From Closterium sp. NIES-65 (lineage: Eukaryota; Streptophyta; Zygnematophyceae; Desmidiales; Closteriaceae), in NCBI GenBank assembly GCA_948144175.1, contig CANXME010000387.1, forward strand, positions 1,268,501-1,332,500: a stretch of DNA of 64,000 nt. The letters run 5' to 3'. The notes under the pieces are model-generated. The model did not search any database. It was not told the origin of the DNA and saw only the letters and a list, made by a program, of their open reading frames with translations. A program made the position numbers and the translations under genes. Shown piece after piece: positions 6,795-47,507 of this stretch (positions within the stretch are counted from its first letter, which is position 1; every line of letters begins with the position of its first letter).

Positions 6795-6919
6795 TGTCAG
6801 AACATTATAGCTTATGCTTTTGTGTAGGCTGTAGTGGGGTAGCCCATATGGGGTACAACCCAATTAGGGTTAGTACTTGTACCCAACTGTTTCATAGTTC
6901 ATCCATTCTCATTTTCTCA
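6795..6919 (+). repeat. C3 5' LTR (125 bp)
   Basis: It runs TGTCAGAACATT to TTTTCTCA and is identical to 15487-15611. It includes GGCTGTAGTGGGGTAGCCC and the GGGGTACAACCC motif common to the family. At this length a complete U3 promoter is doubtful. Confidence 0.96.
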
Positions 6920-6933
6920 TGGTATCGAGCAGG
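6920..6933 (+). other. C3 primer binding site
   Basis: TGGTATCGAGCAGG follows the LTR immediately. It resembles the plant copia site TGGTATCAGAGC, which pairs with initiator Met-tRNA, less one A. The same variant is found in C5 (and TGGTATAGAGCAGG in C6), so the change is a family trait. Confidence 0.85.
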
Positions 6934-10698: not shown

Positions 10699-13449
10699 AC
10701 GGGGAAGGTCGGCGATGCGTCTGCGTTCCGTGTCTGGGGATCTCAGGCGTTTGTCCGCGACTTGTGTGTGGACAAGCTGTCCCCTCGTGCTGCTCCCTGT
10801 GTCTTCCTAGGCTTCCCCCCTGACGCCCCAGGGTGGCAGTTCTACCACCCCTCCTCTCGTCGTGTTCTGTCCTCCCACGACGTCACGTTCGACGAGTCAG
10901 TCCCCTTCTACCGCCTCTTCCCCTACCGCACTCCTTCCCTCCCCCCGCCACCGCACTTCCTTGTGCCAGGTCCCCCCCAGGTAGACCCCCTTCCCCCTCA
11001 GGGTCCTGCCCCTTCAGGTGTGTCCCACGTAGACGCAGTCGAGCCGGTCGAGGTTGCTGGTGACTCTGGTACTGCTGCGGGTGCTGAGCCTTGGGGTGCT
11101 GACTCTGGGGGTGCTGCGCGCGTGGGCGCTGAGCCTGGGGGTGCTGAGCCTGGGGGTACTGCGACTGGGGGTGCTGAGCCAAGGGGTGCTGAGCCCAGGG
11201 GTGCTGAGCGTGGGGGTGCTACGTCAGGAGCTGCTGAGCCAGGGGGTGCTGCTGCGCCTGGAGTTGCGGAGCCTGCGGCCACTGGACCTCCCCTTCTGGC
11301 GTCTGGGGGTGCGGGGCCTGGAGGCTCTCCGGGTGCTTCGTCTCGGCGGGAGCCACTCTCTCCACAGGAGCTGCGCGAGTGGTTTGCTCGCCGCTGGAGG
11401 CGTACTGCTGGAGCTGGAGCTTCTTCGGCCGCTGAGGGTACTTGTGTCGCCGGTCCCGGGGCTCCTAGGCCTTCGGGTCCGCCTGTCGCTGGAGCTACTG
11501 AGGGTGTTGGTGCTGAGACTGCTGCTGTCCTTCCTGACGGTGGTCCTGCTGCGGGTGCTGCTGGTGCTGCTGGAGGTCCTGCAGCTGGAGGTGCTGTTGG
11601 CGCTGGTGCTGCCGCTGAGGGTGCTGGTGCTGTCCCTGCTGTGTCTGAAGTTGCCGCGCGGCCTCGGCCGTACTTCGTTCCGCTCCTGCAGCAGGTTCTT
11701 GGTCTTTCTCCTCCTGTAGAGTGTCCACCGCCTGTCCAGTCACAGTCACAGTTAGAGCCCGCCTCCCCACTTCCTGCTCCCTCTCCTTACACTTGTCCTA
11801 CTGGAGGTCTTGCTGAGCGTCGTGAGCCTGCGTCTCGTCCCGTGTCGCCTGTTCGTGCTGCTCGCGCTAGTGGTCGCGGTTCGCGTCAGCGTCCTCCTCC
11901 TGTCCCTGGCACCCACCGGATGTCTCTGCGTCCGTCCACTGCTCCTCTGCGTGCCCCTTTGCCTTCTCCTCCTGAGTCCTCTCTTCCTGCACTTGCCGAC
12001 CCAGAGTCAGAATCTCTCCGTACTGCCAGTCCTACTGTCACGCGTCTCCTTGCTACTGTGGACGGAGAAGGTCGGCGATGCGTCTGCGTTCCGTGTCTGG
12101 GGATCTCGGGCGTTTGTCCGCGACTTGTCTGCGGACAAGCTGTCCCCTCGTGCTGCTCCCTGTGTCTTCCTTGGCTTCCCCCCTGACGCCCCTGGGTGGC
12201 AGTTCTACCACCCCACCTCTCGGCGTGTTCTGTCATCCCAGGACGTCACGTTCGACGAGTCAGTACCCTACTACCGCCTCTTCCCCTACCGCACTCCTTC
12301 CCTCCCCCCGCCACCGCACTTCCTTGTGCCAGGTCCCCCCCGGGTAGACCCCCTCCCCCCTCAGGGTCCTGCCCCTTCAGGTGTGTCCCAGGTAGATGCA
12401 ATTGAACCGGTCGAGGTTGCTGGTGAATCTGGTACTGCTGCGGGTGCTGAGACTGGGGGTGCTGACTTTGGGGGTGCTGCGCACGTGGGTGCTGAGCCTG
12501 GGGGTGCTGCGTCTGGAGCTGCTGAGCCTTGGGGTGCTGGGTCTGGAGCTACTGAGCCTGGGGGTGCGGAGCCTAGGGGTGCTGAGCCTGGGGGTGCTGC
12601 GTCTGGAGCTGCTGAGCCTGGGGGTGCTGAGTCTGGAGCTACTGAGCATGGGGGTGCGGAGCCCGCGACCGCTAGACCTGCTCGTGTGGCGTCTGGCGGT
12701 GATGGGCCTGCTGGTTCTCCGGGTGCTTCGTCTCGGCGGGAGCCACTCTCTCCACAGGAGCTGCGCGAGTGGTTTGCGCGGCGCTGGAGGCGTACTACTG
12801 GAGCTGGTGCTTCTTCGGCTGCTGAGGGTGCTGGTGCCGCCGGTCTCGGAGGTACTAGTCCTGCGAGTGCTACTGGAGTCGGAGCTGCTGAGGGTGTTGG
12901 CGCTGAGGCTACTGCTGTCAGTCCTGGCGGCGGTCCTGCTGCGGGTGCTGCTGGTGCTGCCGGAGATACTGGAGCTGGAGGTGCTGTTGACGCTGGTGCT
13001 GCCGCTGGGGGTGCTGGTGCTGTCCCTGCTGTGTCTGGAGTCGCCGCGCGGCCTCGGCCGTACTTTTTTCTGCTCCTTCAGCAGGTTCTTGGTCTTCCTC
13101 CTCCCTTGGAGTGTCCACCGCCTGTCCAGTCGCAGTCACAGTTACCGCCGGCCTCCCCTCTGCCTTCTCCTTCTCCGTACACTGGTCCTACTAGAGATCT
13201 TACTGAGCATCGTGAGCCTGCGTCTCGTCGTGCGTCGCCTGTTCGTGCTGCTCGCACTAGTGGTCGCAGTTCGCGTCAGCGTCCTCCTCCTGTCCCTGGC
13301 ATGCACCGGATGTCTCTGCGTCCGTCCAGTGCTCCTCTGCGTGCCCCTTTGCCCTCTCCTCCTGAGTCGTCTCTTCCTGTGCTTGCCGACCCTGAGTCGG
13401 ACTCTCTTCGTGCTGCCAGTCCTACTGTCACGCGTCTTCTTGCTACTGT
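10696..13449 (+). repeat. 1.36-kb tandem duplication in the C3 linker
   Basis: Segment 10696-12058 is repeated as 12059-13449 (about 1363 and 1391 bp). Each copy runs from the integrase C-terminal VGDASAFRV motif through the Gly/Ala/Glu linker to LLATV. The copies differ by substitutions and by repeat number in the linker, so they came from related templates rather than a recent exact duplication. The first unit is not a multiple of three and shifts reading from frame 1 to frame 2. Confidence 0.9.
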
Positions 13450-15276
13450 CATCACTGACCCCTCCTTTGAGTCCACTGCTGCGTCTGCTCTTGTTGCTGA
13501 GCTCGTCGACTTTGCTGCTCGCTGTCGTCTAGACTACGCTGCTAGTCTTGTTGCTGAGTCTGCGTGTCTGTCCTCCGTCCGTCGGGGGTGAGTGTGCTCT
13601 TGGCACGGACGTCCTTGAGGACAGGCAGGAGGAGTTCCAGTGTCTGGCTGCTGCTTCACCTCATCTCGCGTCCGTACTACTTACCCCTTAGGGAGACCCG
13701 GATGCACTAGACATCCCGACTCCGCGCTCTTACGCGGAGGCCGTAGAGGGTCCCTACTCTTCTCAGTGGAAGGCAGCTATGGATGCATAGATGGCTTCCT
13801 GGAAGTCCACAGGCACCTACGTTGACGCGGTTCCCCCTTCTGGGGCGAACATCGTCAGTGGCATGTGGATCTTCAGGGTGAAGCGGCCGCCGGGCTCTCC
13901 ACCTGTCTTCAAGGCGCGGTACGTGGCTCGTGGCTTCAGTCAGCGGCAGGGAGTTGACTACTTTCAGACCTTCTCTCCCACCCCGAAGATGACCACTCTT
14001 CGGGTGCTGCTACACGTAGCAGCTCAGCGTGACTACGAGCTTCACTCCCTTGACTTCAGCACTGCTTTCCTGCAGGGTAGCCTGCACGAGGAGATCTGGT
14101 TGCGCCGTCCACCTGGCTTCACTTGGACTTTCCCTCCTGGCACCCAGTGGAGCCTCCGACGGCCAGTCTACGGTCTCCGCCAGGCACCGCGCGAGTGGCA
14201 CGACACACTGAGGACTACACTTGCGGCTCTTGGGTTTGCTCCCTCTACTGCTGACCCGTCGCTGTTTCTACGCACCGACACCTCTCTGCCGCCGTTCTAC
14301 ATCCTCGTGTACGTCGACGACTTGGTCTTTGCCACAGCTGACCCTGCTGGACTTGCCCACGTTAAGTCCGAGCTGCAGAAGAGACACACGTGCACAGACC
14401 TGGGTGAACTGCGCAGCTACCTTGGCTTGCACATCACCCGGGACAGAGCACGCCGCACCATTACCCTGACTCAGTCACACATGGTCCAGCAGGTCCTTCA
14501 GCGCTTCGGCTTCACGTACTCCTCGCCTCAGGCCACTCCTCTATCTACTCGCCACTCGCTCTCAGCTCTGCCTTCGGACGAGTCCGTAGAGTCGAGTGGC
14601 CCGTATCCAGAGCTTGTTGGCTGCCTCATGTACCTAATGACCTGCACACGACCTGACCTTGCATACCCTCTTAGCATTCTTGCACGCTATGTTGCTCCTG
14701 GGAGACACCGACCAGAGCACATGGCTGCAGCGAAGAGGGTGTTGCGCTACTTGTGCAGTACGTCGGGCATGGGGCTAGTGCTTGGAGGGCGGAGTCCAGT
14801 GGTCCTCACTGGGCACGCGGACGCTTCTTGGGCAGCGGTCGTCACAGGGTTACACCTTCAGCCTTGGTTCCGGCTCTGTTTCGTGGCGGGCTACTCGCTC
14901 GTCTTCTGTTCTCGGCTCGAGTTGTGAGGCTGAGATCTACGCCGGGGCCATGGCTGCACAGGAGCTTCGCTGGCTTACCTACCTGCTGACTGACCTCGGA
15001 GAGCCGCCTCGTTCCCCTCCGGTGCTGTACGTAGACAACAAGGCCATGCTAGCCTTGTGTCGGGAGCATCGCCTGGAGCACAGAACGAAGCACATTGCTC
15101 TCCGCTACTTTCTTGCTCGTGAGTTGCAGCAGCGTGGTCAGTTGCGACTTGCGTACGTGGCCTCTGAGGCCAACACTCCTGATGTTTTCACCAAGGCACT
15201 TGCGCCTTGTGATCATCAGCGCTTCTGTACTCAGCTTGGTCTTGTGCCTGTCTTGCCTCACTTGCTCACCTCTTGA
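10699..15276 (+). pseudogene. C3 linker, reverse transcriptase and RNase H
   Basis: Reading starts in frame 1 and passes to frame 2 after the duplication joint (about 12059). A 2-bp loss near 13565 moves it to frame 3, and a 17-bp deletion near 14834 returns it to frame 1, ending at TGA 15274-15276. Stops in frame 3 lie at 13689 and 13788, both GAG to TAG. The RT is otherwise well kept, with SGMWIFRVKRPPGSPP, the QTFSPTPKMTTLR stretch and an intact YVDD (14310-14321). RNase H has SCEAEIYAGAM, LYVDNKAML and HIALRYFLARELQQRGQ. The linker has many GGAEPGG-type repeats. Confidence 0.9.
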
Positions 15277-28458: not shown

Positions 28459-29578
28459 GCCAAAAAGGGAGGCAGGCAGGCAAGCAGGCGACGCGCAGCG
28501 TGCTAGCAGGGCAGGGGCTCACCAGTGGTGGGTAGAGTAGGCTCGGCGACTCAGCGGCCGACAGCACGGCGGCTCTGCGGCTCGGGCGACTCGGGCGGCT
28601 CGGCGGCAGGGCGGCTCGGCAGCAACTGCAGCTCGGCAGCTCGGCGACCCGGCGGCGCGGCTGTAGGGCGGCTCGGCTGCTAGGAGGCTCGGGTGTAGAG
28701 CGGCTCGGCTGCAGGGCGGCTCGGCTGCTGGGAGGCTCGGGTGTAGAGCGGCTCGGCGGCGAGGCGGCTCGGCTGCAGGGCGGCTCGAGACGAAGGAGGA
28801 GGAGAAGCAGGGGAGACCACACACCTGCCACCCCTCAGCTGGCCATTCAGGTCGCCTCGACAGGCGACGGGAAAAGGGGGGGGGGGGGGGGGGGGGGGGA
28901 GGCGGCTCGGGCGGCTCGGGCGGCTCAGGCGGCTCGGGCAGCTCGAGCAGTCAGCGGCACAGGCGGCTCGGGCGGCTCGGCTCCTCAGCTGCGCAGACGG
29001 CTCGGGCGGCTCAGGCTGCACGGCGGCTAACGGGCGGCGTGGGGGGGGCCGGGACGGCGGCGTGCAGCAGGGACGGGAGGCGCACGGGCGGTGTGAGGCC
29101 GGGACGGGTGAGGGGCCAGGACGGGCGGCGTCCTGGCGCCGAGGGGCCGAGACAGGAGAGCGCGGCCGGGACGGGCGCGCGCGGGTGGCTAGGGGCCGGG
29201 ACGGGCGGCGCGCGGGCGGCTAGGGGCCTGAACGGGCGGCGCGCGAGCGGCTAGGGGCCGGGACGGGCGGCGCGCGGGCGGCTAAGGGCCGGGACGGGCG
29301 GCGCGCGGGCGGCTAGGGGCCTGAACGGGCGGCGCGCGAGCGGCTAGGGGCCGGGACGGGCGGCGCGCGGGCGGCTAAGGGCCCGGACGGGCGGCGCGCG
29401 GGCGGCTAGGGGCCTGAATGGGCGGCGCGCGGGCGGTTAGGGGCCTGAACGGGCGGCGCGCGAGCGGCTAGGGGGCCGCAGGGCAGGCCGAAAGAGTGAG
29501 AGCGAGGGCCCGGAGCGCGCTCCGGGCATAAAAAAGGTTTAAAAGTGGTGGGCCCTAAGCACAGTTCCCACGGGGGAA
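28459..29578 (-). repeat. C5 leader with GC-rich tandem repeats
   Basis: This 1.1-kb region between primer site and ORF is almost wholly repetitive. Two stretches (about 28540-28790 and 28895-29030) are built on GGCGGCTCG, the complement of the CGAGCCGCC units in the C3 and C6 leaders. A 24-base G run lies at 28876-28899. From about 29030 to 29470 there is an approximately 31-bp minisatellite containing GGGCGGCGCGCGGGCGG. No capsid-like coding is visible in any frame. Confidence 0.8.
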
Positions 29579-30185: not shown

Positions 30186-30733
30186 GTGCGTTCCGTGGAG
30201 TTAATATTCTCTCTCCCGCAGCACAGTGTTAAGGCTCCCCGTCGCCCACAGGTGAAGCCTACACAGCTGCCAAGGCTTAGAGGAGACATCCAGGCTCAGG
30301 AAAAACTATACAAGCCTCGGAAAAATCCTCCTACCCCCCAGGTGAAGTTGGAAAGCGCTGAGTCAGGTAGAGGAAAAAGGGAAGGTATTAAGGTTGATGT
30401 ACCCTATGATCCTGTTAACGAGACCCTCTTTGGCTACTCAGCACAGCAGAAACCACTACTCCTCGAGGTGTTATGCAATGGGCGATGCCTCCAGGCACTG
30501 GTGGACAGCGGTGCATCTCACTCGGTGTGTGACCGCGGAGCATTGGAGAAAATTGGAGAGAAGGCGGAAGAGACCCAGTTTTCAGCAACCATGGTGGACG
30601 GTACGAAGCTTCCTATCCACGGCGAAGCATCACTGCAACTGCATATAGGTGCGTTGAGGTGGAAGCCGAAGCTACCAGTCACCAACATCAAAGGATTAGA
30701 TTTTATCTTGGGGCGAGATTTCCTGAAGCGGTT
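30186..30733 (+). pseudogene. G1 aspartic protease, N-terminal part
   Basis: Frame 3 encodes a gypsy-type retropepsin: LLLEVLCNGRCLQALVDSGA with catalytic Asp at 30504-30506, then SHSVCDRGAL, TKLPIHGEASLQL and GLDFILGRDFLKRF. G2 inserts within the last motif. The next codons, FNPEIDWVNSK, resume at 38176, which fixes the insertion point. Reading from the upstream spacer needs a frame change near 30225. Confidence 0.9.
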
Positions 30734-31105
30734 TGTCATACATTTAATTGGAAGAATGAAGAGCAGGACCTAGCAATATAAATGCATGACAGGATACAGT
30801 AGTGAGTAGTTTTCAAGCGAAGTAGGCAGAGGCGAATAGCGCCAAATCAGAGAACTGACGAACAAAACCAACCGTTGCAGGCAACGGTAACCATGTGCAC
30901 ATACTTAGGCAAGCAACACGGGTCGGTTTCATTTGCTTGCTTGTATGTTTCCTCTATCAGCTAAGAGTTACTCGCTACTCGCGTTAGCCCACCAGGGAGG
31001 AGCCAATCCCAGCAAGCCCTTTTGTGCAGGTTCCCACTCAGTGTTCTCAGGCAGTCAGCCGAGCTAGGGAGACTCTGAGGGAAGCCCACGAGCCAGGAGC
31101 TTACA
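30734..31105 (+). repeat. G2 repeat A1 (372 bp, left LTR-like)
   Basis: It starts TGTCATACATTT and ends GAGCTTACA, and differs from A2 (37597-37968) at 3 of 372 positions. Unlike the right end it is not followed by a B repeat. The 45 bases between A1 and the ORF1 ATG (31106-31150) contain no TGG-type tRNA primer site that I can recognise. Confidence 0.94.
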
Positions 31106-31150
31106 ACATACAAGCAAGGAAATGCGACAGATCGCTGTTTCCAAGCTAGG

Positions 31151-34100
31151 ATGAACGATAGGTTTAGACTACGTTCAGGGCAGAGCTATCGAAGAGAAGA
31201 TATTTCAGCGGAACCTAGCTGGCGCGCCGCCGCGACGACCTCGTTAGACCGAGTGTCAGTGGTGGAGTCAAGGAGTTTGCCAGCGCCGACTACCGATGCG
31301 TATCGGACCCCGCACCAACGGGAACGAGGGCGACGCGCGGAGATGGAGCCAGCTCGGGCCGTCGCGTCAGATCCAGGAGAGACACCCCAAGATATGCGCT
31401 GGGCACGGGAAGCGAGAGCACGGTGGGAGAACCGCCCAGCTAGTAACTCCCCGGGGTTGATGCCGGGGATGGAAGCTGATCGAATGCCGGCACAGGCGAC
31501 CTGGCTGCGGCGCCAGCCAGAGGGAGAGTTCCGGTCGCCGACGCAGCGAGAGATTATAGCGAGTCGAATGGCGGAGCCACCGTCAACAACCGCCCCACCA
31601 GATCGGGCTACCGACAAGAGATGGCAGGCAGGATCCCTACCGAAGCTGGAGGTGGCCGAGCGGTTTACTGGCATTCCCGGCGTGGGTCCCACTCTGAAGA
31701 ACTATCTGATGCAGTTGGAGACAGTGCAGTACTGCTGGGAACGGGACGGGCTGGACCCGGCTGAATTCTTCCGGCGGATGGTAGTAACGTTAGCAGGAGA
31801 GGCCGAGACCTTCTATCGCATGACGCGGGAGGAGGTGCTGGAGGAGCTAGCGTGTGGAGAGATCGGGAACCCGACCGAGCGGTTTGTCGAGCTGCTGAAA
31901 AAGGAATTTCTAGGGCAAACTAAAGCGCGGGTTGAGGAATTTCGCGAGTTTCGCCGAGGAAAGGATGAGTCCCTGCTAGCCTACTACTGTCGACTGAGGG
32001 AGCTTGCAGAGGATCTGGAAAGCCGAGACGAACGGTTGCTGGTGCGCAAGTTCGTCCGAGGCTTAGATGACGATCTGCGGAATGTGGTGCGGAACACAGT
32101 GTACGGCATAGGTGCAGATGTCACCCTGAAGGACGTCTACGGATTGGCTAAAAGGACGGAGCACGCGCAGAGAATGTTGGATTTAGAGGACGGGGAGGTG
32201 CGTCCTAAAACGAAGTCCTCATGGGCGGCGGCGGCGCTGACGGAGGCGCCTCTAGCGGGACTACAACGGGCTGACGCACGACGGTGCCATGAATGTGGGG
32301 AAGCTGGCCATTTGAAGCGGGAGTGCCCGAAGCTGCCAGTGTGTGGGAATTGTGGACGGAAGGGGCATAAGGAGGATGCTTGCTACAGTCGGCGACGCTC
32401 TGAAGAGACTCCTAGTAAAGAGGAGCTGCAGGCAGAGATTAAACGGTTACAGCTGAGACTGGAGGCGAAGCCTCAAGTGGAGCAGAAGGCCAGAGCGATG
32501 CTGGCGTACGAGGAGATCAAAGGGGAGGAAGAAAGCGAGGGCGATTATCTGCGCGCAAGCGGCTTTATGGCGTTCCCAAGGGAGAGAGAGGACCTCGACC
32601 TTCGGATCCGGGGAAGCCAGTCGTCTGGAAGCCGTACGAGCAGAGTACGTGAGCCACGCGGCAACGTGCATGAGGGAAGCAGTACCTCCGAACTGAGGCG
32701 CCACCCTAACGAGAGACTGGTGTTCCAGGCATCTGTCCTGATAGCCGAAAAGGGGAGCCTGACGGTGGGTGGGTTGCCAGTGGGGCAAGCGATCATCGAC
32801 ACCAGGGCTCACCACGTGCTGATCGGGAAAGGATTAGCTAGACAACTGAAGCTCGACTTGCCCGGGAGGCTCGTGCCGAGGGGCATCCTGCTCATGACCG
32901 CCGAGGGAGGAGAGCCAAAATGGATGCCGCGGACGGTAAGGCCCATCGAGATAGTACTGCGTCCCGGCACTGACAAGGAATGCTGTATCCGCGTGACTTG
33001 TGGCGTGTCTGAGTCGGAGGATTATGATGCGTTGGTGGGCATGGACGTGCTTTACCGAGTTGGTGCCACCATCTGTACCTGGCAAGAGAAAGTGCTGTAC
33101 CGCGTGCACTACTGGGACGCTGCCAGTTCCGTGGGTACTTTGCTTGTGAAATTCGTGAAGCAAGAGCCCCGGGAGGCATACGGGGCACGGGCTGCTGACC
33201 TGGGACCGGTGCTGGACGACTGGAGCTGGGAGAGATACGCGGAGGAGTACGAACGGAGAATAGAGAGGAGGAGGCGGGGGCGGGAACCGACCTCGCTGAA
33301 AGAAAGAGTGACCAGGCTCTGGACATTAGAAGGAGCAGTGTGCATCATGGAGCTGTACGGGGGCATCGGCACAGGACTGGCGGCGGTGTTGCGTGCTGGC
33401 TGTAGGGTGAGGAAGTGGATTCACGTCGAAAGAGATCCGGTGGTGCGCCGGATGGCGCAGCATCACGCCCGGCAGCTGCTAGCCGAATATCCCGATCAGC
33501 TGGCCGAGTCCGCCCTACCCGTGGAATATGAGGAGGTGGTGGACGATGTCCGGGATATCTCGGAGGAGACACTGGAGCAGTGGAGGCAGATTGACATTAT
33601 TGTGGCGGGATGGGAATGTCAGGGTTATTCTAGGGCCGGACCAGGAATGGGAATGGCTGACATACGGGGGGCCTCCTTCAGGGACCTAAAGCAGGTGTTG
33701 GAGATGGTTCAGGAGAAGCAAGGGGAGGTGCTCTACATCCTGGAGAACATGGACTTTGCTGACGATCGCAGAGAGCCCGTACACAGGGCATTCGCCGAAG
33801 TAGAAGCCGCTGTCGGTAGGGGGCAAGCAGTAGACGCGGCGCAGCTTGGGTCCAGAGCGCACCGGCCCAGGAGATACTGGCAGAATGGGATCTCAGAGGC
33901 CCTTTTGCGCCACTCTCTGGCTCAGATGCAGCGGCCGGAACCGAGATTGGTTAGTGACATCCTGGGCCCCAACCGACTGCCAGCGCCAGTCACGGTGCCG
34001 GATCACCCGTCCCAGTACCAGTGTAATGTGCCTGGAAAGCCGAGACAGGCGCTGCCGACACTCGTGTCCTACGTGGACGCCTACGGATTCGCGATGGAGG

Positions 34101-34528
34101 GAGACTTGCCCGGGCCCGGAATGATCTATGATGTCATCGGGAAACAGTGGGAGCAACCGACGGCCGAAGAGCGGGAGTTAGCCATGGGGCATCTGCTGGG
34201 AGCTACTGCCCACCCTCGAGTGACTGAGCCACAACGGAGGGCAGCGCTGGGCAGAGCTATGGACCTGAATGTCATGGCGTGGCTGGTGGAAACTATTCGC
34301 ATGCACCTAAAGAGGAAAGAGCTCCAACGGGGTATTGAAGTCAGTGAGCTGTACCGAGAGGAAGAGGAGACAGAGGAGCAGAAACGCCAGCTGAGAGCCA
34401 TAGAAGAGCAACAGGAAGCGCGTATCTTGGAAGGATCGGCCTGCATGGCTGTGGAAGCCGAGAGTACGGCTACAGACCAAGGAGTACTGCCACCCGACGG
34501 GGAGACGGAGACGGAAAAGACAAGCTAG
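31151..34528 (+). CDS. G2 ORF1: gag, CCHC, protease-like and C5-methyltransferase
   Basis: 1125 aa, uninterrupted. Residues about 155-350 form a Retrotrans_gag capsid (LPKLEVAERFTGIPG, FVELLKKEFLGQTKARVEEF). Two CX2CX4HX4C knuckles lie at 379-392 and 398-411, followed by a coiled-coil-like stretch. The retropepsin-like domain has D550-T-R where DTG is expected, then ALVGMDVLYRVG. Residues about 725-1070 resemble a cytosine-5 DNA methyltransferase: motif I ELYGGIGTG (734-742), motif II-like HVERDP, motif IV GWECQGYSRAG with candidate nucleophile Cys823, ENM (865-867) for the ENV motif, AHRPRRYWQNG (903-913), which is DNMT3/DRM-like, and GRAMDLNVMAWL as motif X. The expected activity is methyl transfer from S-adenosylmethionine to cytosine. 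The usual PCQ reads ECQ. Activity is inferred, not shown. Confidence 0.88.
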   Translation: MNDRFRLRSGQSYRREDISAEPSWRAAATTSLDRVSVVESRSLPAPTTDAYRTPHQRERGRRAEMEPARAVASDPGETPQDMRWAREARARWENRPASNSPGLMPGMEADRMPAQATWLRRQPEGEFRSPTQREIIASRMAEPPSTTAPPDRATDKRWQAGSLPKLEVAERFTGIPGVGPTLKNYLMQLETVQYCWERDGLDPAEFFRRMVVTLAGEAETFYRMTREEVLEELACGEIGNPTERFVELLKKEFLGQTKARVEEFREFRRGKDESLLAYYCRLRELAEDLESRDERLLVRKFVRGLDDDLRNVVRNTVYGIGADVTLKDVYGLAKRTEHAQRMLDLEDGEVRPKTKSSWAAAALTEAPLAGLQRADARRCHECGEAGHLKRECPKLPVCGNCGRKGHKEDACYSRRRSEETPSKEELQAEIKRLQLRLEAKPQVEQKARAMLAYEEIKGEEESEGDYLRASGFMAFPREREDLDLRIRGSQSSGSRTSRVREPRGNVHEGSSTSELRRHPNERLVFQASVLIAEKGSLTVGGLPVGQAIIDTRAHHVLIGKGLARQLKLDLPGRLVPRGILLMTAEGGEPKWMPRTVRPIEIVLRPGTDKECCIRVTCGVSESEDYDALVGMDVLYRVGATICTWQEKVLYRVHYWDAASSVGTLLVKFVKQEPREAYGARAADLGPVLDDWSWERYAEEYERRIERRRRGREPTSLKERVTRLWTLEGAVCIMELYGGIGTGLAAVLRAGCRVRKWIHVERDPVVRRMAQHHARQLLAEYPDQLAESALPVEYEEVVDDVRDISEETLEQWRQIDIIVAGWECQGYSRAGPGMGMADIRGASFRDLKQVLEMVQEKQGEVLYILENMDFADDRREPVHRAFAEVEAAVGRGQAVDAAQLGSRAHRPRRYWQNGISEALLRHSLAQMQRPEPRLVSDILGPNRLPAPVTVPDHPSQYQCNVPGKPRQALPTLVSYVDAYGFAMEGDLPGPGMIYDVIGKQWEQPTAEERELAMGHLLGATAHPRVTEPQRRAALGRAMDLNVMAWLVETIRMHLKRKELQRGIEVSELYREEEETEEQKRQLRAIEEQQEARILEGSACMAVEAESTATDQGVLPPDGETETEKTS

Positions 34529-34567
34529 GAGAGGGGACCCGAGGATGCCTGGCCCATAGGCTCTGGA

Positions 34568-37039
34568 ATGGGGGCAGAGCCAGCGCAGGCATTACAGGAG
34601 GTACTGAAGCGGCACCGCAAGACGTTTGCATACACCTTATCCGAACTGGGGCAATGTCAATCGCATCAAATGCAGGTGAAGCTGAATACCGAGATGCCCA
34701 TATACGTACGAAAACGGAGGATGAGTCCAGGCGACTTGGACACCTGCCGGGAGAAGTGCGCGGAGCTGTTAGCAGCGGGTCTTATCCAGTTCTCTGACAG
34801 TGACTACGCAGCAGCGACGGTTGTAGCAGCACGGAAGGATCTCACGGGAGAGGTATCAGCCAGGAGAATGTGTGGGGACTACCGAGGACTTAATAAAGTG
34901 ACAGTGGCGGACAGGTACCCCATGCAATCGGCGGAAGAGATATTCGATCAGCTGCAGAGAGCAGTAGTGTTCAGCACGCTGGATCTCCGACAGGGATTTA
35001 ATCAAATACCGATCAAGGAAGAGGACCGGAGGAAAACGGCCTTCCACGGACCCGAGGGGCTGTATGAGTGGAAGTTCATGCCCTTTGGCATGAAGAACGC
35101 GCCAGCATTATTCCAGCGGGTGATGGACTCAGTGCTGAGGCACGTGCCGGCGCCAGCCTGCTACATCGACGATGTAGTCGTGTTCAGTGCATCCGCAGAG
35201 CAGCACGTGAAGGACGTGGGCGATACACTGGACGCCATTCAAGCAGCAGGGCTGACTTGCCACCCTAAGAAATGCAGTTTCGGGAACAGCACAGTGAAGT
35301 ATTTGGGCTTCGAAGTACAAGGGGGGCAGCTGAGCATCCAGCAAGCGAAAGTGGAGGTGCTGGACCGAGTCTCCGCCCCTAAGGACCGCAGTACGCTGAG
35401 GGCAGTACTGGGCTTCCTTAACTATTACAGGAAGTTCGTACCCAACTTCAGCCGTACTGCCGCAGTACTGAACAGGTTGCTGCGAGAGGACCAGGTGTGG
35501 CAATGGGGAGAGGAAGAGCAGGGGGCATTCAAAGCCCTCCTTAAGGCGGTGAAGACGGGGACCGTCCTTACACTGCCCAGTACGGAAGACCCGTTCGTAC
35601 TCTACACCGACTGGAGCAGTGCAGGCATGGGGGGAATCCTATGCCAGGAGAGGGACGGACAGGAAATGGTGGTGGCCTTTGCGAGCCGAAGCTGTAACCC
35701 TGCAGAAGCCAATTACAGTTCATACGAAGGGGAAGGGCTCGCGGCGGTCTGGGCTATCACCCACTTCCGGGTATATCTACAGGGGAGGCCATTCGTGTTA
35801 GTCACGGATCATCAGCCGCTGACGTGGCTGATGACCAATCAGGCCTTGACAGGCCGGAACGCTCGATGGGCCATGCGCCTGCAGGAATATGAGTTCACCA
35901 TTCGACACCGAGCAGGGAAGACATTGCAACACGTGGACGGGCTATCACGCAACCCGCCACCTGCGAGCCCAGAGGCGTGCCTCGTGGCTTTGGCGAGAGA
36001 AATCGACGGGGAAGGAGCTAAACGGAAAGCTCAAAAGGGAGCTGAAGACGTCTGGGAGGATGAAGAGACGCTGGGGTGGATCCAAGGAAAGAACTCAGAA
36101 GCAAAACCTGCAAGCGAGAGGGCCAGAGCCAGGGGCCTGCATTACCGGTGGTTCCGGGACCAGCTCCAGAAAAACACTAAGGAAGGATGGAAGCTGGTCC
36201 CGAGGCGAGAGGAACGGGAAGAGATCATAGCGAGGGTACACCGGCAGTTGGGGCACTATGGCAGCCTAAGGACGAGCCAGCTAATAGAGACGGGCTGGTG
36301 GTGGGCGGGAATGAGGGGAGACATTAAAGAGTGGGTGGGCGCTTGCGAATTATGCAGCAGGAACAAAGCAGAGATGGAGAGAGGGAGGGAAGAGCTGCAC
36401 TCGTTGCCCATCCGAGGCCTGGGGTTTCGGTGGTCGTTAGATATGGCCGGAGAAATGCCGCTCAGCCGAAGGGGGAAGCGATTCATACTCATCATGATCG
36501 AACACGGCAGTAAGTGGGTGGAGGTGAAGGCGCTGCCAAGCAAGAGCTCGGCCCGGATAGCAGAAGCATTTGAGGAACAGGTGTTGACTCGGTTCGGAGC
36601 ATGTGGGGAGGTATTAACAGATCAGGGCACAGAATTCTTGGGCAATTTCGAAAAGCTACTGAAAGCTAGCAGTATTACCCATCGGCGGACCTCCAGGTAT
36701 CACCCACAGAGTGACGGGCTCACAGAGCGGTTTGTGCAGACGGTGAAGAGAGGGCTGAGAGCCTACGGGGAACAATTCAAGAAGGACTGGGACCTGAGAC
36801 TCCCGTGGGTAGTCGCAGGATACCACTTCAGTAAGCAGGCAGCGCTAAAGGACTTCTCGCCGTACTACCTGCTGCTGGGAAGGGAACCTATCTTGCCCAT
36901 AGACGCGCCACGGGTACTGACAGATGTGGTCTCAGTGAGCTCGGAAGACGCCTGGGTGGGGCTGGCCGAGGTTAGGGCAAGGTACCTACGGGAGATGCTG
37001 CCAGCAGCGTTAGAGAACCTGCATGTGGCCCAGCTCTGA
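34568..37039 (+). CDS. G2 ORF2: RT, RNase H and integrase
   Basis: 823 aa in the same frame as ORF1. The 13 codons between the ORF1 TAG and this ATG are open. RT shows MCGDYRGLNKVTVADRYPM, LDLRQGFNQIPI and YIDD (residues 199-202). RNase H follows, with LYTDWSSAGMGG, EGEGLAAVWA and VTDHQPLTWL. Integrase has the zinc region HRQLGHYG to CELCSRN and the DDE core D625 (SLDMAG), D685 (TDQGTEF) and E720 (GLTERF). All catalytic residues are present. It ends at TGA 37037-37039, probably CGA changed to TGA, since the frame continues beyond. Confidence 0.93.
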   Translation: MGAEPAQALQEVLKRHRKTFAYTLSELGQCQSHQMQVKLNTEMPIYVRKRRMSPGDLDTCREKCAELLAAGLIQFSDSDYAAATVVAARKDLTGEVSARRMCGDYRGLNKVTVADRYPMQSAEEIFDQLQRAVVFSTLDLRQGFNQIPIKEEDRRKTAFHGPEGLYEWKFMPFGMKNAPALFQRVMDSVLRHVPAPACYIDDVVVFSASAEQHVKDVGDTLDAIQAAGLTCHPKKCSFGNSTVKYLGFEVQGGQLSIQQAKVEVLDRVSAPKDRSTLRAVLGFLNYYRKFVPNFSRTAAVLNRLLREDQVWQWGEEEQGAFKALLKAVKTGTVLTLPSTEDPFVLYTDWSSAGMGGILCQERDGQEMVVAFASRSCNPAEANYSSYEGEGLAAVWAITHFRVYLQGRPFVLVTDHQPLTWLMTNQALTGRNARWAMRLQEYEFTIRHRAGKTLQHVDGLSRNPPPASPEACLVALAREIDGEGAKRKAQKGAEDVWEDEETLGWIQGKNSEAKPASERARARGLHYRWFRDQLQKNTKEGWKLVPRREEREEIIARVHRQLGHYGSLRTSQLIETGWWWAGMRGDIKEWVGACELCSRNKAEMERGREELHSLPIRGLGFRWSLDMAGEMPLSRRGKRFILIMIEHGSKWVEVKALPSKSSARIAEAFEEQVLTRFGACGEVLTDQGTEFLGNFEKLLKASSITHRRTSRYHPQSDGLTERFVQTVKRGLRAYGEQFKKDWDLRLPWVVAGYHFSKQAALKDFSPYYLLLGREPILPIDAPRVLTDVVSVSSEDAWVGLAEVRARYLREMLPAALENLHVAQL

Positions 37040-37453
37040 GACGCACAGCGCTACAAAATAAGGAGAGAAGAGCAGGCAGGGGCAAAGGGGGCACCGTTGG
37101 GGGTGGGGGAAGAAGTATATGTCAAACAGGCCAGGCAAGACATGCTGGATATAGGGCTCAGCACTGAGAGGTGGAAAGTGAAAGAGGTCAAAGAGTCGGG
37201 AGTCGTAGTACTAGTGGGGGACAAGGGGCAAGAGAAGAGGGATCATCAGACGAATGTAGCTAAGGCAAGGCCCCCGCGAGTACCCCCAGGCCCTCTCAAG
37301 CAGAAGGAGCAGACAAGAGAAGAGCCTTTCAAAAAAGGGGTCCATCGGCGATACCTACCAGAGCGAGAGTTAGCGCCAAGGAGGGGGCAAGAGGGAAAGG
37401 CAGGGGTAGCCACCCAACGCATGAAGAGAGAGTTGAGGAACTTGATGGGGTGA
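37040..37453 (+). pseudogene. G2 polyprotein C-terminus after a TGA
   Basis: The same frame continues from 37040 to TGA 37451-37453: DAQRYKIRREEQAG, then GEEVYVKQARQDM, TERWKVKEVKESGVVVL and a basic tail. This matches the part of gypsy integrases around the GPY/F module. No chromodomain is seen, unlike G1. The last 21 codons lie inside repeat B1. It is cut from ORF2 by one TGA. Confidence 0.75.
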
Positions 37454-37595
37454 GACAGAGGGAGAGGGGATACAGAGAAGGGAGGGACAAGGTGGGAGGG
37501 GCTGGCACTAGACTAAAGACAGGGGCAGAAGGAAGAAGGTACTGAGCAGGGAAGGACAAAGCAAGAAGAGAGACAAAAGACCAAGTTTCCGACAG
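37390..37595 (+). repeat. G2 repeat B1 (206 bp)
   Basis: It is purine-rich, holds the end of the coding frame and 3' UTR, and ends TTTCCGACAG. It matches B2 (37969-38174) with one difference. Its left edge shares CAAGAGGG with the A2/B2 joint, leaving about 3 bases of ambiguity. Confidence 0.92.
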
Positions 37596-37600
37596 CTGTC
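37591..37600. other. Palindromic B1/A2 joint of G2
   Basis: GACAGCTGTC is a perfect 10-bp palindrome. Its left half is the element's right terminus (GACA) and its right half the left terminus (TGTC), with GC between. It looks like a circle junction of the two element ends. Confidence 0.75.
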
Positions 37601-37968
37601 ATACATTTAATTGGAAGAATGAAGAGCAGGACCTAGCAATATAAATGCATGACATGATACAGTAGTGAGTAGTTTTCAAGCGAAGTAGGCAAAGGCGAAT
37701 AGCGCCAAATCAGAGAACTGACGAACAAAACCAACCGTTGCAGGCAACGGTAACCATGTGCACATACTTAGGCAAGCAACACGGGTCGGTTTCATTTGCT
37801 TGCTTGTATGTTTCCTCTATCAGCTAAGAGTTACTCGCTACTCGCGTTAGCCCACCAGGGAGGAGCCAATCCCAGCAAGCCCTTTTGTGCAGGTTCCCAC
37901 TCAGTGTTCTCAGGCAGTCAGTCGAGCTAGGGAGACTCTGAGGGAAGCCCACGAGCCAGGAGCTTACA
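37597..37968 (+). repeat. G2 repeat A2 (372 bp)
   Basis: It differs from A1 at 3 of 372 positions (G/T, G/A and C/T). The element does not end here: the 5 bases after A2 do not match the left flank, and element sequence (B2) continues to the real host joint. Confidence 0.94.
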
Positions 37969-38174
37969 AGAGGGAAAGGCAGGGGTAGCCACCCAACGCA
38001 TGAAGAGAGAGTTGAGGAACTTGATGGGGTGAGACAGAGGGAGAGGGGATACAGAGAAGGGAGGGACAAGGTGGGAGGGGCTGGCACTAGACTAAAGACA
38101 GGGGCAGAAGGAAGAAGGTACTGAGCTGGGAAGGACAAAGCAAGAAGAGAGACAAAAGACCAAGTTTCCGACAG
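37969..38174 (+). repeat. G2 repeat B2, right end
   Basis: Second copy of B1, ending at the host G1 sequence. The element probably ends at GACA (38173), with GGTT (38174-38177) as target duplication. Base 38174 is shared between repeat and duplication. Confidence 0.9.
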
Positions 38175-38177
38175 GTT

Positions 38178-39769
38178 CAACCCCGAGATCGATTGGGTCA
38201 ACAGCAAGGTGTGCATCTACAACAATGGGAAGCGGATAGCACTGCGAACCTGGACGGATACAGGGGACGTAACCTGAAACGACACTGGCACGGTTCGAAC
38301 AGACGGTGAACAAGAGTAACATGGGTTACCTAGCACTGGTTATGGCAGCAGCAGAGGAGGAGAAGCCGAGTTCCGAGCTACCTGCAGCAGTGAAAGAGGT
38401 CTTGGAGCAGTACAAGGACATAATGCCCGACGACCTACCTGCGGGCGTACCTCCAGCACGCACCCACGAGCACGAGATCGTGGAGGAACCAGGTGCGAAA
38501 CCCGTCTGACGTGCACCATACCGACTGATTCCGACTGAACTGACAGACATGAAAAAACAGATAGAGTATCTACTGGACAGACAACTGATCCGCCCATCCA
38601 CCTCTCCCTACGGCGCACCAGTTCTCTTCACTCCAAAACCAGACGGCAGTCTACGGATGTGCATCGACTACTGCGCACTGAACAAACAGACAGTCAAAAA
38701 CAAATATCCCATACCGCGCATAGACGACCTACTCGATCAACTGCGTGGAGCAACAGTATTTTCGAAACTGGACCTACGATCGGGCTACTGGCAGATCAAG
38801 ATGGCAGACAACTCCGTCCACAAGACAACGTTCCGTACCAGATACGGCTCCTACGAATACTTGGTGATGCCGTTCGGACTCTGCAACGCACCAGCAACGT
38901 TTCAGGCGGAAATGAATCACATCTTACGACCCCTGCTGGACGAATGCGTGGTGGTGTACCTGGACGACATTCTCATCTACTCCAAGAACATGAAGGAGCA
39001 CGTGGAGCATCTGCGGAAGGTGTTCGAGATCCTGCGGAAAAACAAGTTCTACGTAAAGCTGTCAAAGAGCGACTTCGCCCTGAAGAAGGTGCAGTTTCTC
39101 GCGCACATGGTGAGTGCCGAGGGCATACACGTGGACCCACGGAAGATCGAAGCCGTCAAGAAGTGGAAAGTACCAGAGAACGTGAAGGAGTTACAGCAGT
39201 TCCTAGGCTTCGCCAACTACTACAACAGGTTCGTGCCGCAGTACGCTAAGATAGCAGCGCCACTGACCGACCTACTGAAAAAGGATACGCCCTACAAATG
39301 GGATACCCTTCATCAGCAAGCCATGGAGCAGCTACAGACAGCACTGACTACAGCGCCAGTACTCATCTTGCCGGATCCAGACAAGGACTACGTGGTGAAA
39401 GCAGACGCTAGTGACCAAGCAGTCGGAGCAGTACTGATGCAGGATCATGGACGCGGTTTGCAGCCCATCGCCTACCTCAGTAAGAAGCTACACGGAGCAG
39501 AACTAAACTACCCCATTCACGACAAGGAAGCCTTAGCGATAGTCATAGCCTTCAAGGCGTGGAGGTGTTACCTAGAGGGAGCCAAGACTACAGTCTATAC
39601 TGACCACTGCAGTCTCAAATACCTGAAGTCACAGCCGACACTCTCACGACGACAGGTGCGGTGGGTGGACTTCCTGGAAACTCACTTCCACTACGACATC
39701 GTCTACAAGCCCGGGCTACACAACAAGGCAGACGCGTTGAGCCGCCCCGGACATGTAGCAGGCATCTAG
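38178..39769 (+). pseudogene. G1 protease end, RT and RNase H
   Basis: Frame 1 finishes the protease (NPEIDWVNSKVCIYNNGKRI) to a TGA at 38275, where a small indel moves reading to frame 2. Frame 2 runs to TAG 39767, with one TGA at 38507-38509 before RAPYRL (CGA to TGA). RT has [31 protein letters not shown] and YLDD (38957-38968). RNase H has [27 protein letters not shown] and [11 protein letters not shown]. The enzyme domains are otherwise complete. Confidence 0.93.
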
Positions 39770-41047
39770 CTCGACGGGATGAACCCTCTGCTCAAGGGTC
39801 TATTCCAACATGGGTACTCCGTGGACGCAGAGATTGCTACAGCACAGACCAAGAAGCTATTACAGTGGGAGAAAGACTTAGCTGTAAGGAAGGGTTCAGG
39901 AAAGATATGGGTACCGAATTACGCCCTGCTACGGCAGATCCTATTGGAGGAGTTTCACGACGTACCTTACGCGGGACATTTCGGGAGCAACAAGACGTTA
40001 GCAGGGATAGCGAAGTATTACTACTGGCCCGGGATGGCAGCAGACGTGCAGCAGTTTGTCACCTCTTGCGACACGTGCCAGCGGATGAAGAGCAGCAAGC
40101 AGAAAAAAGCAGGGTTACTTCAGCCTCTACCCGTACCGGAGCAGCCATGGCAGGTCGTTAGCCTCGACTTCATCACAGGGCTTCCTTCGAGTAAGTTCTG
40201 GAAGGAGCTCATGGGACTATTGGGGACAAAGCTTGCAATGTCTTCAGCATACCACCCCCAGACTGACGGACAGACAGAGCGACTCAATCAAGTGGTTGAA
40301 CAGTTACTGCGCACAGCTTGCAAGGACGACGTCAGCCACTGGGACACACAGTTACCAACCCTAGAGTTCGCTTACAACAACGCATCACATGCGGCCACAG
40401 GGAAAACTCCTTTCTTCCTGTGTTACGGACGGGAACCACTCACACCACAGCAGCCAACTACACCGGCACACGTCCAAGCCGCACATGACTTCGTCACCAC
40501 CATGCAGCAGCTATGGGAGAAGACTCAGCGACGTCTCACCACGATGCAGAACTCCCAGAAGCAGTATGCCGATCGTCAGTGACGTGATCACTCAGTAGCA
40601 GTCGGAGATCAGGTGCTTCTTGACACGCGCAACTTGAACGTGTCTCACCTCCCATCCAAACTCCGGCCTCGCTTCTGTGGTCCTTTTCTCGTTGAGGCAC
40701 AGGTGACACCAGTTACATTCGGCTTGCGCTTACCAGATACATGGAAGCTTCACAACGCTTTCCATGTCCAGCTACTGAAGCCCTACAAGGACCCCAACCA
40801 ACAGTTCCAGGGACGGCAACTACCGCCACCACCACCCGTTCTCATACAGGATGAACCCGAGTACGAGATCGAGCGCGTTCGCTCTCATCGGCGCCGTGGT
40901 GGCAAGACTCTCGAGTTCCTAATACGTTGGAAGGGATACGACCCCACTGAGGACAGTTGGGTTGCAGAAGCTGATATGGGCAACGCACGCCGTGCTCTCA
41001 AGGACTATCTTGTCAAGCAGGGTGTATCCCACGCCACCCAGCTTTGA
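39770..41047 (+). pseudogene. G1 integrase (deleted core) and chromodomain
   Basis: Frame 2. The integrase zinc region is HDVPYAGHFGSNKT to CDTCQRMK, and the core opens SLDFITGLPSS. At about 40194 it jumps to KFWKELMGLLG and YHPQTDGQTERLN, so roughly 50 residues with the second catalytic Asp are deleted in frame. TGA at 40580 is probably CGA changed. After the GPY/F-like region a chromodomain (about 40859-41022) reads EYEIERVRSHRRR, then LEFLIRWKGYDPTEDSWV, which classes G1 as a chromovirus. In this family the chromodomain guides insertion to marked chromatin. Confidence 0.94.
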
Positions 41048-41808: not shown

Positions 41809-42553
41809 AGCGGGCAGAGCGGTCGGGCGCGCTAGTAGCAGAGCAGCACGCAGGTAGGGCAAAGCAGGGCGGTGGCCTGCAGGGCGACTCTCAGAGCAGT
41901 AGCATGGAGTAGGGCAGGGTGGCAGTCATTAGGGCAGGGTGGCGCCGCTGTTAGCGGCGCTCAGGCAGGGCGGTGCGGCCAGCACGGGCAGGGCAGCGCG
42001 GCCAGCAGGGCAGTGCAGGGCGTTTCAGGCCAACAGGGTAGTGCAGGGCGCCGCTCAGTAGTGCAGGGCGGCGCGGCCAGTGCTTACACATGCAGGCAGG
42101 GCAGGGTAGTCGCGCTTGCTGGCACTACACTGTGCAGGGCTATGACAGTAGTCCTGTAGAAGTAGGGCAGGTGCAGCAGTAGGGCAGTAAGGACAGCGGG
42201 CCGGCAAGGTGTAGGGCCAGTGCAAGTGCACGGGCGGCAGGGCAGGTGCGCACGGGCCTGGCGCGGGCTGTACGGACCGCGTGCGGGTCTAGCGTGGGCT
42301 GTACTAGCTGCGCGCGGGCCTGGCACGGGCTGTACGAGCTGCGTGCTAGTCGTGTGCGGGCTGTACTGGCTATATGCGGGCGGCGCACGGGCTGTATGGG
42401 CTGCGCAAGGGCGGCGCGCGGGCTGAACGGGCCTGGCGCGGGCTGTACGATCCAAGCTCGGGCGGTTCGCGGGCTAAACGGGCAGATTTCAGGCAGGAAA
42501 AAAACAACTAATCGGTGGGCCCTCTAAAAAAAAATGGTCCTTAGGAAGGACCC
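41809..42553 (-). repeat. C4 leader, GC-rich repeats
   Basis: About 745 bp between primer site and gag. Degenerate short repeats fill it: CAGGGCGG-type units at about 41860-42110 and GCGCGGGCTGTACG-type units at about 42240-42480. No capsid or other domain. It corresponds in position to the C3, C5 and C6 leaders. Confidence 0.7.
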
Positions 42554-45925: not shown

Positions 45926-47507
45926 CCAACTCCTCGATCGTACGCTGAGGCGATCAAGGGTCCCTACTCCTCACAGTGGCAGTCAGCCATGGACGCAGAG
46001 ATGGCTTCCTGGAAGTCCACAGGCACCTACGTCGACGAGGTTCCCCCACCTGGGGCGAACATCGTCAGTGGCATGTGGATTTTCAGGGTGAAGCGGCCGC
46101 CGGGTTCTCCGCCTGTCTTCAAGGCGCGTTACGTGGCTCGAGGCTTCAGTCAGCTCGAGGCAGGGAGTTGACTACTTTCAGACCTTCTCTCCCACCCCGA
46201 AGATGACCACTCTTCGGGTGCTGCTACACATAGCCGCTCAGCGCGACTACGAGCTTCACTCTCTTGACTTCAGCACAGCTTTCCTGCAGGGCAGCCTGCA
46301 CGAGGAGATCTGGCTGCGCCGCCCACCTGGCTTCACCGGGTCGTTTCCTCCTGGTACCCAGTGGAGCCTCCAGCGGCCAGTCTACGGTCTCCGCCAGGCG
46401 CCACGTGAGTGGCACGATACACTGAGGACTACACTTGCGGCTCTTGGGTTTGCTCCTTCTACAGCCGACCCGTCGCTGTTTCTGCGCACCGACACCTCTT
46501 TGCCGCCGTTCTACATCCTCGTGTACGTCGACGACTTGGTCTTTAACACTGCTGACACTGCTGGACTCGCCCATGTGAACTCCGAGGTGCAGAAGAGACA
46601 CACGTGCACAGACCTGGGTGAACTGCGCAGCTACCTTGGCTTGCAGATCACTCGGGACAAAGCACAGCGCACCATTACCCTGACTCAGTCACACATGGTG
46701 CAGCAGGTCCTTCAGCGCTTCGACTTCACGTACTCCTCGCCTCAGGCCACTCCTCTATCTACTCGCCGCTCGCTCTCAGCTCTGCCTTCGGATGAGTCCG
46801 TAGAGCCGAGTGGCCCGTACCCAGAGCTTGTTGGCTGCCTCATGTACCTGATGACCTGCACACGACCTGACCTTGCATACCCTCTTAGCATCTTGGCACG
46901 CTATGTTGCTCCTGGGAGACACCGACCAGAGCACATAGCTGCAGCGAAGAGGGTGTTGCGCTACTTGTGCAGTACGTCGGGCATGGGGCTAGTGCTTGGA
47001 GGGCGACGTCCAGTGGTCCTCACAGGTCACGCAGACGCTTCTTGGGCTGACGACCAGGCTACGCAGCGGTCGTCACAGGATTACACCTTCAGCCTTGGCT
47101 CCGGCTCTGTTTCGTGGCGGTCTACCCGCTCGTCTTCTGTTCTTGGCTCCAGCTGTGAGGCTGAGATCTACGCGGGGGCCATGGCTGTACAGGAGCTACG
47201 CTGGCTCACCTACCTGCTGACTCACCTAGGAGAGCCGCCTCGTTCTCCTCCAATTCTGTACGTAGACAACAAGGCCATGCTGGCCTTGTGTCGGGAGCAC
47301 AGACTGGAGCACAGAACGAAGCACATTGCTCTCCGCTACTTCCTTGCTCGTGAGCTGCAGCAGCGTGGTCAGCTGCGCCTTGCTTACGTGGCCTTTGAGG
47401 CCAACACTGCTGATATCTTTACCAAGGCACTTCCGCCTGGTGATCATCAGCGCTTCTGTACTATGCTAAGTCTTGTGCCTACTTGGCCTCACTTGCTCAC
47501 TTCTTGA
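45926..47507 (+). pseudogene. C6 reverse transcriptase and RNase H
   Basis: Reading begins in frame 2 at TPRSYAEAIKGPYSSQW, the start of the copia RT domain, and stops at 46169-46171 after a 4-bp insertion near 46154. Frame 3 then runs uninterrupted (46203-47507): YVDD intact near 46525-46536, RNase H with SCEAEIYAGAM, YVDNKAML and HIALRYFLARELQQRGQ, natural stop at 47505-47507. Only one frameshift separates it from a complete RT-RNase H. Confidence 0.92.

Follow-up and report, generated by a model that had tools for sequence, protein, structure and literature searches.

The methyltransferase element and its locus

We analyzed a stretch of 64,000 nucleotides (nt) from Closterium sp. NIES-65 (contig CANXME010000387.1, from an assembly of 874 Mb), hereafter the window, whose positions serve as coordinates throughout. 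A Ty3/gypsy-type retrotransposon coding for a C5-cytosine DNA methyltransferase had been proposed here from the letters alone (the original prediction), and this was borne out by a match to the Pfam family PF00145 (28.2 bits versus a cut-off of 22 in a profile search of open reading frame 1, ORF1) and by a predicted DNMT3 fold. The element occupies positions 30734-38173, extending past the second of its 372-bp repeats, and belongs to a large and diversified lineage in which the methyltransferase lies between the protease and the reverse transcriptase (RT).

The domain order gag, protease, RT, RNase H, integrase, with an rve integrase, is that of Ty3/gypsy elements, the protease match being below its cut-off. 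ORF1 spans 31151-34528 (1125 codons), unbroken as had been claimed, and shares one frame with ORF2, from which a single in-frame stop separates it. The RT, RNase H and integrase that had been described as intact beside it are present. The catalytic motif of the protease is altered in the window copy, one of three copies with such a change among the 30 compared. Because of the altered protease motif, the window copy is probably not fully competent; the few differences between its own repeats (3/372 and 1/206) indicate that it is young. Readthrough of the stop at 34526-34528 was considered and rejected, as the downstream fold is unremarkable (z -1.15) and 12 of 41 copies have no stop there; we read the stop as damage to the window copy.

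Table 1. Features of the methyltransferase-bearing element in the window.
Feature	Positions	Strand	Remark
Left target-site duplication, GGTT	30730..30733	.	same 4 bases at 38174-38177
Repeat A1, TG...CA, 372 bp, promoter and leader side	30734..31105	+	3/372 mismatches against A2
Self-primer stretch within A1	30936..30949	+	14-nt perfect complement to 31105-31118
Primer-binding site, immediately 3' of A1	31106..31118	+	complementary to self-primer
ORF1: gag, CCHC knuckle, protease, methyltransferase	31151..34528	+	
Retrotrans_gag, residues 213-306	31787..32068	+	PF03732, E=4.7e-6
CCHC zinc knuckle, residues 378-394	32282..32332	+	PF00098, 20.8 bits, at cut-off
Aspartic protease region, residues 525-670 (our bounds)	32723..33160	+	PF13975 below cut-off
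C5-cytosine methyltransferase domain, predicted DNMT3 fold, residues 725-1070	33323..34360	+	
Single in-frame stop separating ORF1 from ORF2 in the window copy	34526..34528	+	
ORF2: RT, RNase H, H2C2, integrase core (rve)	34568..37039	+	
Run resembling a polypurine tract, AAGGAGGGGG, just left of B1 (putative role)	37378..37387	+	
Repeat B1, end ...CCGACA	37389..37594	+	1/206 mismatch against B2
GC spacer at the B1/A2 joint, centre of palindrome GACAGCTGTC	37595..37596	+	
Repeat A2	37597..37968	+	
Repeat B2, ends ...CCGACA, right end of the element	37969..38173	+	
Right target-site duplication, GGTT	38174..38177	.	

Identity and fold of the methyltransferase domain

Along ORF1 the motifs ELYGGIGTG (starting at residue 734), HVERDP (758), GWECQGYS (820, with Cys823), ENMDF (865), AHRPRRYWQN (903) and RAALGRAMDLNVMAWL (1030) stand at the predicted positions, and motifs I, IV, VI, VIII and X follow one another in order together with the catalytic cysteine. 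This order is unpermuted (I at 734, IV at 820, X at 1030), unlike that of DRM enzymes. Besides PF00145, the domain matched TIGR00675 with E=2.6e-7, yet under its curated cut-off, and PHROG 116 with E=2.3e-12 over residues 16-345 of the 365-residue domain cut-out. The best solved relative by sequence is DNMT3B (E=9e-6), with which the domain has V.DVR.I and AHR..Y/FW.N in common.

Structure prediction, like the profile search a check proposed at the outset, gave the DNMT3 catalytic fold when an alignment was supplied, for which 42 of the 59 viral reading frames found were used; the model is closest to DNMT3A/3B (24.4 for DNMT3 versus 21.9 for HhaI, with HhaI, HaeIII and others also above 20). 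Prediction from the single sequence was poor (a mean per-residue model confidence, pLDDT, of 41.6). Animal DNMT3 enzymes carry PWWP and ADD domains; no such Pfam domain was found in ORF1 at E up to 1, and the protein is therefore classed as having a DNMT3 fold and not as a DNMT3. A search for relatives encoded as single proteins found none in viral and prokaryote contigs, and none in plasmids.

Copies in the genome and selection on the domain

The genome holds at least 41 copies of ORF1, 81-100% identical. In twelve of the 41, a single frame of 2,074-2,178 codons without a stop runs from gag through integrase, methyltransferase included, so that the two-ORF layout is not the plan of the family, and the presence of gag in the same polyprotein, correctly noted in the original prediction, marks no difference in kind. 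Ratios of nonsynonymous to synonymous substitution (dN/dS) were calculated by the Nei-Gojobori method for 30 copies in three subfamilies, with L111 and L116 excluded from the between-group RT comparison. Between the three subfamilies, the ratio was 0.066, 0.095 and 0.084 for the methyltransferase and 0.070, 0.071 and 0.056 for RT, with 0.031-0.083 for gag and 0.054-0.058 for protease; each half of the methyltransferase domain stayed below 0.1, and the N-terminal 164 residues were much looser (0.31-0.36). The methyltransferase domain is under selection about as firm as the rest of the polyprotein, RT included. Speaking against this are the higher ratios for most parts within the subfamily of the window copy (0.47 for the methyltransferase, 0.44 for RT), as expected for decay of copies after insertion.

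Conservation of the motifs can be followed copy by copy: motifs I and IV are present in the correct order in all 30 ORF1 copies read, the catalytic cysteine and the glycines of motif I are kept in all of them, EN[VM]DFA of motif VI in 29 and the motif VIII pattern in 27. A genome search with PF00145 scored 123 of 902 candidates, every one of them over the cut-off. Reading frames with a methyltransferase are very numerous in the genome; they extend well beyond the present element and fall into several diverged families, and at one place (G000:C995:460522-474898) three methyltransferase matches lie exactly 7,064 bases apart, which suggests a tandem array of elements. When relatives free of the methyltransferase were sought with pol, the 55 scored of 26,604 candidates were all 87-100% identical.

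A glutamate before the catalytic cysteine

Proline is usual before the catalytic cysteine of C5-cytosine methyltransferases, although it is not required for a profile match. All 30 copies have glutamate there (ECQ and not PCQ), and WECQG was found in each of the 16 other genomic PF00145 matches fetched, a sample of the 123 scored places; seven of the 16 were also examined for repeats. Twelve of these 16 domains, 48-56% identical to the window domain, group with it, and in the tree this group is split from 11 viral rows, drawn from the 42 viral frames of the fold alignment, with support of 100/100. Since ECQ occurs in every copy and in diverged relatives, it is an old, clade-wide trait of the lineage; the alternative that it reflects decay was rejected on the same counts, and the substitution, rightly noticed in the original prediction, is not peculiar to the window copy.

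Three other explanations of the domain were weighed against this background. That it is a neutral insert captured inside a decaying element seems scarcely tenable: the window copy has its stop between ORF1 and ORF2 and its altered protease motif, and 20 of 30 copies contain at least one stop within the stretch read, but between-subfamily ratios of 0.066-0.095 are RT-like and far from about 1, motifs I and IV stand in order in every copy, and the domain is also present in diverged families. The neutral decayed insert that the original prediction had named as the outcome speaking against it is removed by these ratios, and we rejected it. Acquisition from a bacteriophage-type methyltransferase and not from a eukaryotic DNMT3 we regard as unlikely. 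A tblastn search gave 80 phage records (best E=3e-10 at 26% identity), PHROG 116 covers most of the domain, and the CQG at the cysteine is nearer to phage and bacterial enzymes than to the CN of DNMT3B; set against this, the fold ranks DNMT3 above HhaI (although HhaI, HaeIII and others also exceed 20), DNMT3B is the best solved relative and has two motifs in common with the domain, and the viral rows separate from the element clade with full support. Somewhat less improbable, though still not what we expect, is that the domain no longer methylates, ECQ having disabled it, and that it is retained in the polyprotein for a structural role or for binding nucleic acid. The fixation of ECQ in all 30 copies and all 16 other matches would agree with this, as would the PCQ of all seven phage enzymes aligned and a C-terminal motif that differs from the GNGWTVDVI type of phages; but a part that only binds need not retain the catalytic cysteine, and here the cysteine and motif I glycines (30/30), EN[VM]DFA (29/30) and motif VIII (27/30) are retained while both halves of the domain remain below 0.1.

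Possible activity and role of the enzyme

Selection, domain order and predicted fold point to a working enzyme. Its methylation would probably serve to mark unintegrated DNA or to protect it, or else to adjust how new copies are silenced. Action on unintegrated double-stranded DNA is favoured, because methyltransferases recur in elements with split repeats, namely DIRS elements with Dam-like enzymes, SymbioDIRS and KnitGypsy, as described in the published text of de Mendoza et al. 2018 (PMC5890265), to which the original prediction had correctly pointed. The association is a correlation drawn from that account and from the present genome. The 2018 authors proposed that complementary DNA (cDNA) is methylated during retrotransposition, and according to the same text both SymbioDIRS enzymes were active in yeast (PMC5890265). 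Several points weigh against an active enzyme or such a target: the change from proline to glutamate is unusual, all seven phage enzymes having proline; the Klebsormidium nitens enzyme gave no methylation in yeast, a result that its authors call inconclusive; and SymbioLINE is a methyltransferase-bearing long interspersed element (LINE) without split repeats (PMC5890265).

We also looked at CpG dinucleotides. Depletion as a sign of self-methylation was rejected, there being no clear difference in observed/expected CpG between the element (0.77; methyltransferase stretch 0.76, A1 0.58) and the window (0.74). Changes of C/T or G/A type between a copy's own repeats fell in CpG in 12 of 36 cases, compared with 30 of 293 G+C sites (binomial p 1.6e-4, with L090 and L091 both counted); at the level of sequence, this bias fits methylated copies, whoever methylates them.

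Repeats, target duplications and primer

Insertions of elements with long terminal repeats (LTRs) are usually bounded by the same LTR on both sides. Here, the 206-bp repeat B stands directly left of the second copy of the 372-bp repeat A and again right after it, in the order A-coding-B-A-B, and the insertion runs from the TG of A through the final CA of B, with GGTT duplicated. Joining the flanks in silico makes the frame of an older Gypsy element continuous again (...GRDFLKRFNPEIDWVNSK...). The element thus has A at its left and B at its right end, and because these differ it is of Ty3/gypsy type by its proteins only.

The 3' stretches of 30 copies (31 with the window copy) were fetched and 28 were tallied, after exclusion of L089 and L112, whose fetched stretches contained neither A nor B, and of C2165, which lacked a CCGACA joint. 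The order A-coding-B-A-B was found in 22 of the 28, among them L110, which looks like A-coding-B only because its B1 lies outside the stretch; L100, L103 and L111 were left unresolved. With TG...CA ends, identical flanking 4-mers were found in 21 of the 24 copies with both ends located, or in 20 of 23 independent ones given that L090 and L091 share their flanks; three copies of an 82%-identical subfamily are included. A1 and A2, like B1 and B2, differ at 0-3 positions in most copies (11 and 2 in L108, 4 and 5 in L098), and this near-identity within both pairs indicates that both were made in one event. L093 is preceded by a full extra B and 128 bp of 3' sequence of the element, as in a tandem unit. 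Three other families, with methyltransferases of 49-54% identity (C343, C1819 and C542), have the same layout, palindrome and 4-bp duplication. For C1532, the fetched stretch contains the palindrome and the two A repeats but not a second B, and for C1450, C783 and C1592 it contains no A pair.

Repeat A also contains a complement to the primer-binding site that follows it. A 12-nt complement starting at 31104-31108 arose in 0 of 20,000 first-order resamples of A; the self-primer stretch is unchanged in 28 of 30 copies, and the primer-binding site is exact in 29, L106 having one substitution.

The two kinds of joint

The inner B-A joint is constant, CGACA-GC-TGTCAT in all 21 copies where it was read. 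Its palindromic core GACAGCTGTC is found in four other families too, extended to CGACAGCTGTCG in C1532 and to GCGACAGCTGTCGC in C1819. The A-B joint varies. Its commonest form, with A complete and B starting from the second base after GGGGGC, was found in 14 of 24 independent insertions, and in the other 10 the length differs through trims on either side or added bases. These counts come from manual reading of the printed joints, the B side not having been settled by the script for 7 of 25 rows; L098 and L108 were scored as the commonest form with a substitution, the edge of A in C1819 is unsure, and L102 and L110, with a common A tail and an extra T, are possibly not fully independent. L107 lacks in A2 28 nt that are present in its own A1, and L099 lacks in B2 about 30 nt that are present in its own B1. 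The variable A-B joints look like freshly joined DNA ends.

A candidate integration route

The right edge of A adjoins the primer-binding site and the left edge of B adjoins the purine run, from which the natural cDNA would be BA-coding-BA. We infer a route of self-priming, end-joining and palindrome cutting. Reverse transcription would be self-primed, with the plus strand starting at the purine run left of B1, and would yield a linear cDNA with the LTR B-GC-A. This cDNA, or its double-stranded extrachromosomal form, may be methylated by the enzyme; its right end (A) and left end (B) would be united by end-joining, and the DDE integrase would cleave both strands of the left B-A after CA, within the palindrome CA-GC-TG. 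Insertion of these new ends would give A-coding-B-A-B with a 4-bp duplication, the insertion being a circular permutation of the cDNA. Cutting of this kind has a precedent, recombinant foamy-virus integrase having been described in vitro as cutting an LTR-LTR palindrome after the conserved CA on both strands (PMC1180852).

A number of observations weigh against this route. Copies L093, L096 and L107 lack identical 4-mers, and L097, L101 and L113 (the last with a diverged B recovered in two pieces) show A-coding-B only, with 4-bp duplications and no terminal direct repeat; the latter fit a one-LTR circle and equally a later recombination between B1 and B2. The complete layout was not seen in the fetched stretches of 4 of the 7 other families sampled, the purine run is not unique, several lying inside B, and the extrachromosomal DNA stage is deduced from inserted genomic copies. 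Finally, the isomer A-B-A-coding-B was seen in 0 of the 28 tallied copies, where random cutting of two-LTR circles predicts half, so that the left palindrome must be preferred; our guess is that the left B-A becomes double-stranded first and is cut early.

The missing isomer is accounted for by a different scheme, in which the RNA would be A1-coding-B1-A2-B2, B1-A2 would template both ends in the manner of DIRS elements, and a linear A...B cDNA would be passed to the integrase; the repeat order is also that given for DIRS elements (PMC5890265). An A-B joint copied from RNA should, however, be as constant as its surroundings, and it varies exactly there; some of the trims are absent from the A1 or B1 of the same copy; and, as the primer-binding site directly follows A1, the minus strand should start at the right edge of A and not of B. 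We therefore hold templated ends to be improbable. The best explanation of the whole, which we consider likely without being firm, is a methyltransferase-bearing Ty3/gypsy-type lineage whose self-primed BA-coding-BA cDNA is joined at its ends and cut by integrase at the palindrome, the enzyme methylating that cDNA. A broader proposal, that joined BA-coding-BA cDNA is opened at its internal palindrome, a way of integrating that would be unusual for a DDE integrase and would make each insertion a circular permutation of its cDNA, and that methyltransferases recur in split-repeat retroelements by acting on exposed extrachromosomal DNA, is tentative, and we lean slightly towards doubting it.

Comparison with known systems

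Judged by its published description, the closest counterpart in layout is KnitGypsy-Dnmt3 of K. nitens, an element with Gypsy domains and DIRS-type repeats in the order A-coding region-B-A-B (PMC5890265). Both have an LTR Gypsy organization with a Dnmt3-related, unpermuted and intronless DNA methyltransferase in the Pol frame together with the Gypsy domains (one frame in 12 of 41 copies here), the same repeat order (22 of 28 tallied copies here) and purifying selection on the methyltransferase (Ka/Ks < 0.2 there) (PMC5890265). Methyltransferases within retrotransposons are already known in principle, and the layout, having been named in 2018, is not itself new; the unusual repeats of the original prediction are this layout. 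In contrast, the accessible text on KnitGypsy-Dnmt3 describes no ECQ, 4-bp duplication, self-primer or constant B-A next to variable A-B joints, and proposes no integration route (PMC5890265). In the literature searched, supplements and subscription journals apart, a clade-wide ECQ, a 4-base duplication, a self-primer and the contrast of joints were not found for such elements. Together, these traits suggest the integration route proposed above.

DIRS elements are not known to make a target duplication, and the present element, with its rve integrase and 4-bp duplications, is not one of them. They are described with a tyrosine recombinase in place of integrase (PMC5890265). SymbioDIRS-Dnmt3 and SymbioLINE-Dnmt of Symbiodinium likewise have a retroelement cytosine methyltransferase under purifying selection, and SymbioDIRS-Dnmt3 has the same repeat order; they differ from the present element, with its DDE integrase and 4-bp duplication, by the tyrosine recombinase of the former and the LINE machinery of the latter, as far as their description extends (PMC5890265). 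In the case of foamy virus, the published account of integrase acting on two-LTR circles resembles our proposal in the DDE integrase, the palindromic LTR-LTR joint and the cut at CA; its palindrome arises from joined cDNA ends (PMC1180852), whereas that of the present element is encoded within the repeat unit itself, away from the point at which the ends would be joined.

The Gypsy elements Tf1/sushi and Tcn1 have, to our knowledge, an ordinary LTR layout and no methyltransferase. As here, they are reported to self-prime from their own leader at a primer-binding site adjacent to the repeat (PMC6317226).

Surroundings of the element

The older Gypsy element into which the methyltransferase element inserted lies at 30186-30733 and 38174-40582, its protease frame being split by the insertion; the downstream part holds RT, RNase H and an integrase zinc-binding region, with a stop between two reading frames. 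The nested Gypsy elements are flanked by G+C-rich arrays of 31-bp direct repeats (29084-29548 and 42252-42475), and Copia-type reading frames for RT and integrase (RVT_2, rve, gag_pre-integrs) occur at 4438-14927 and 46203-47507.

Significance

Retrotransposons that carry the silencing chemistry of their host are rare. The copies in this genome are numerous, young and diverse; they keep the enzyme about as strongly as RT, and all those examined share a changed catalytic motif. The structure of the ends gives a testable route of integration, together with a reason why methylation might matter, namely an extrachromosomal DNA stage. If this is true, the cutting of a palindrome by integrase, known in vitro for a retrovirus, would be the way in which an entire lineage of transposons regularly integrates.

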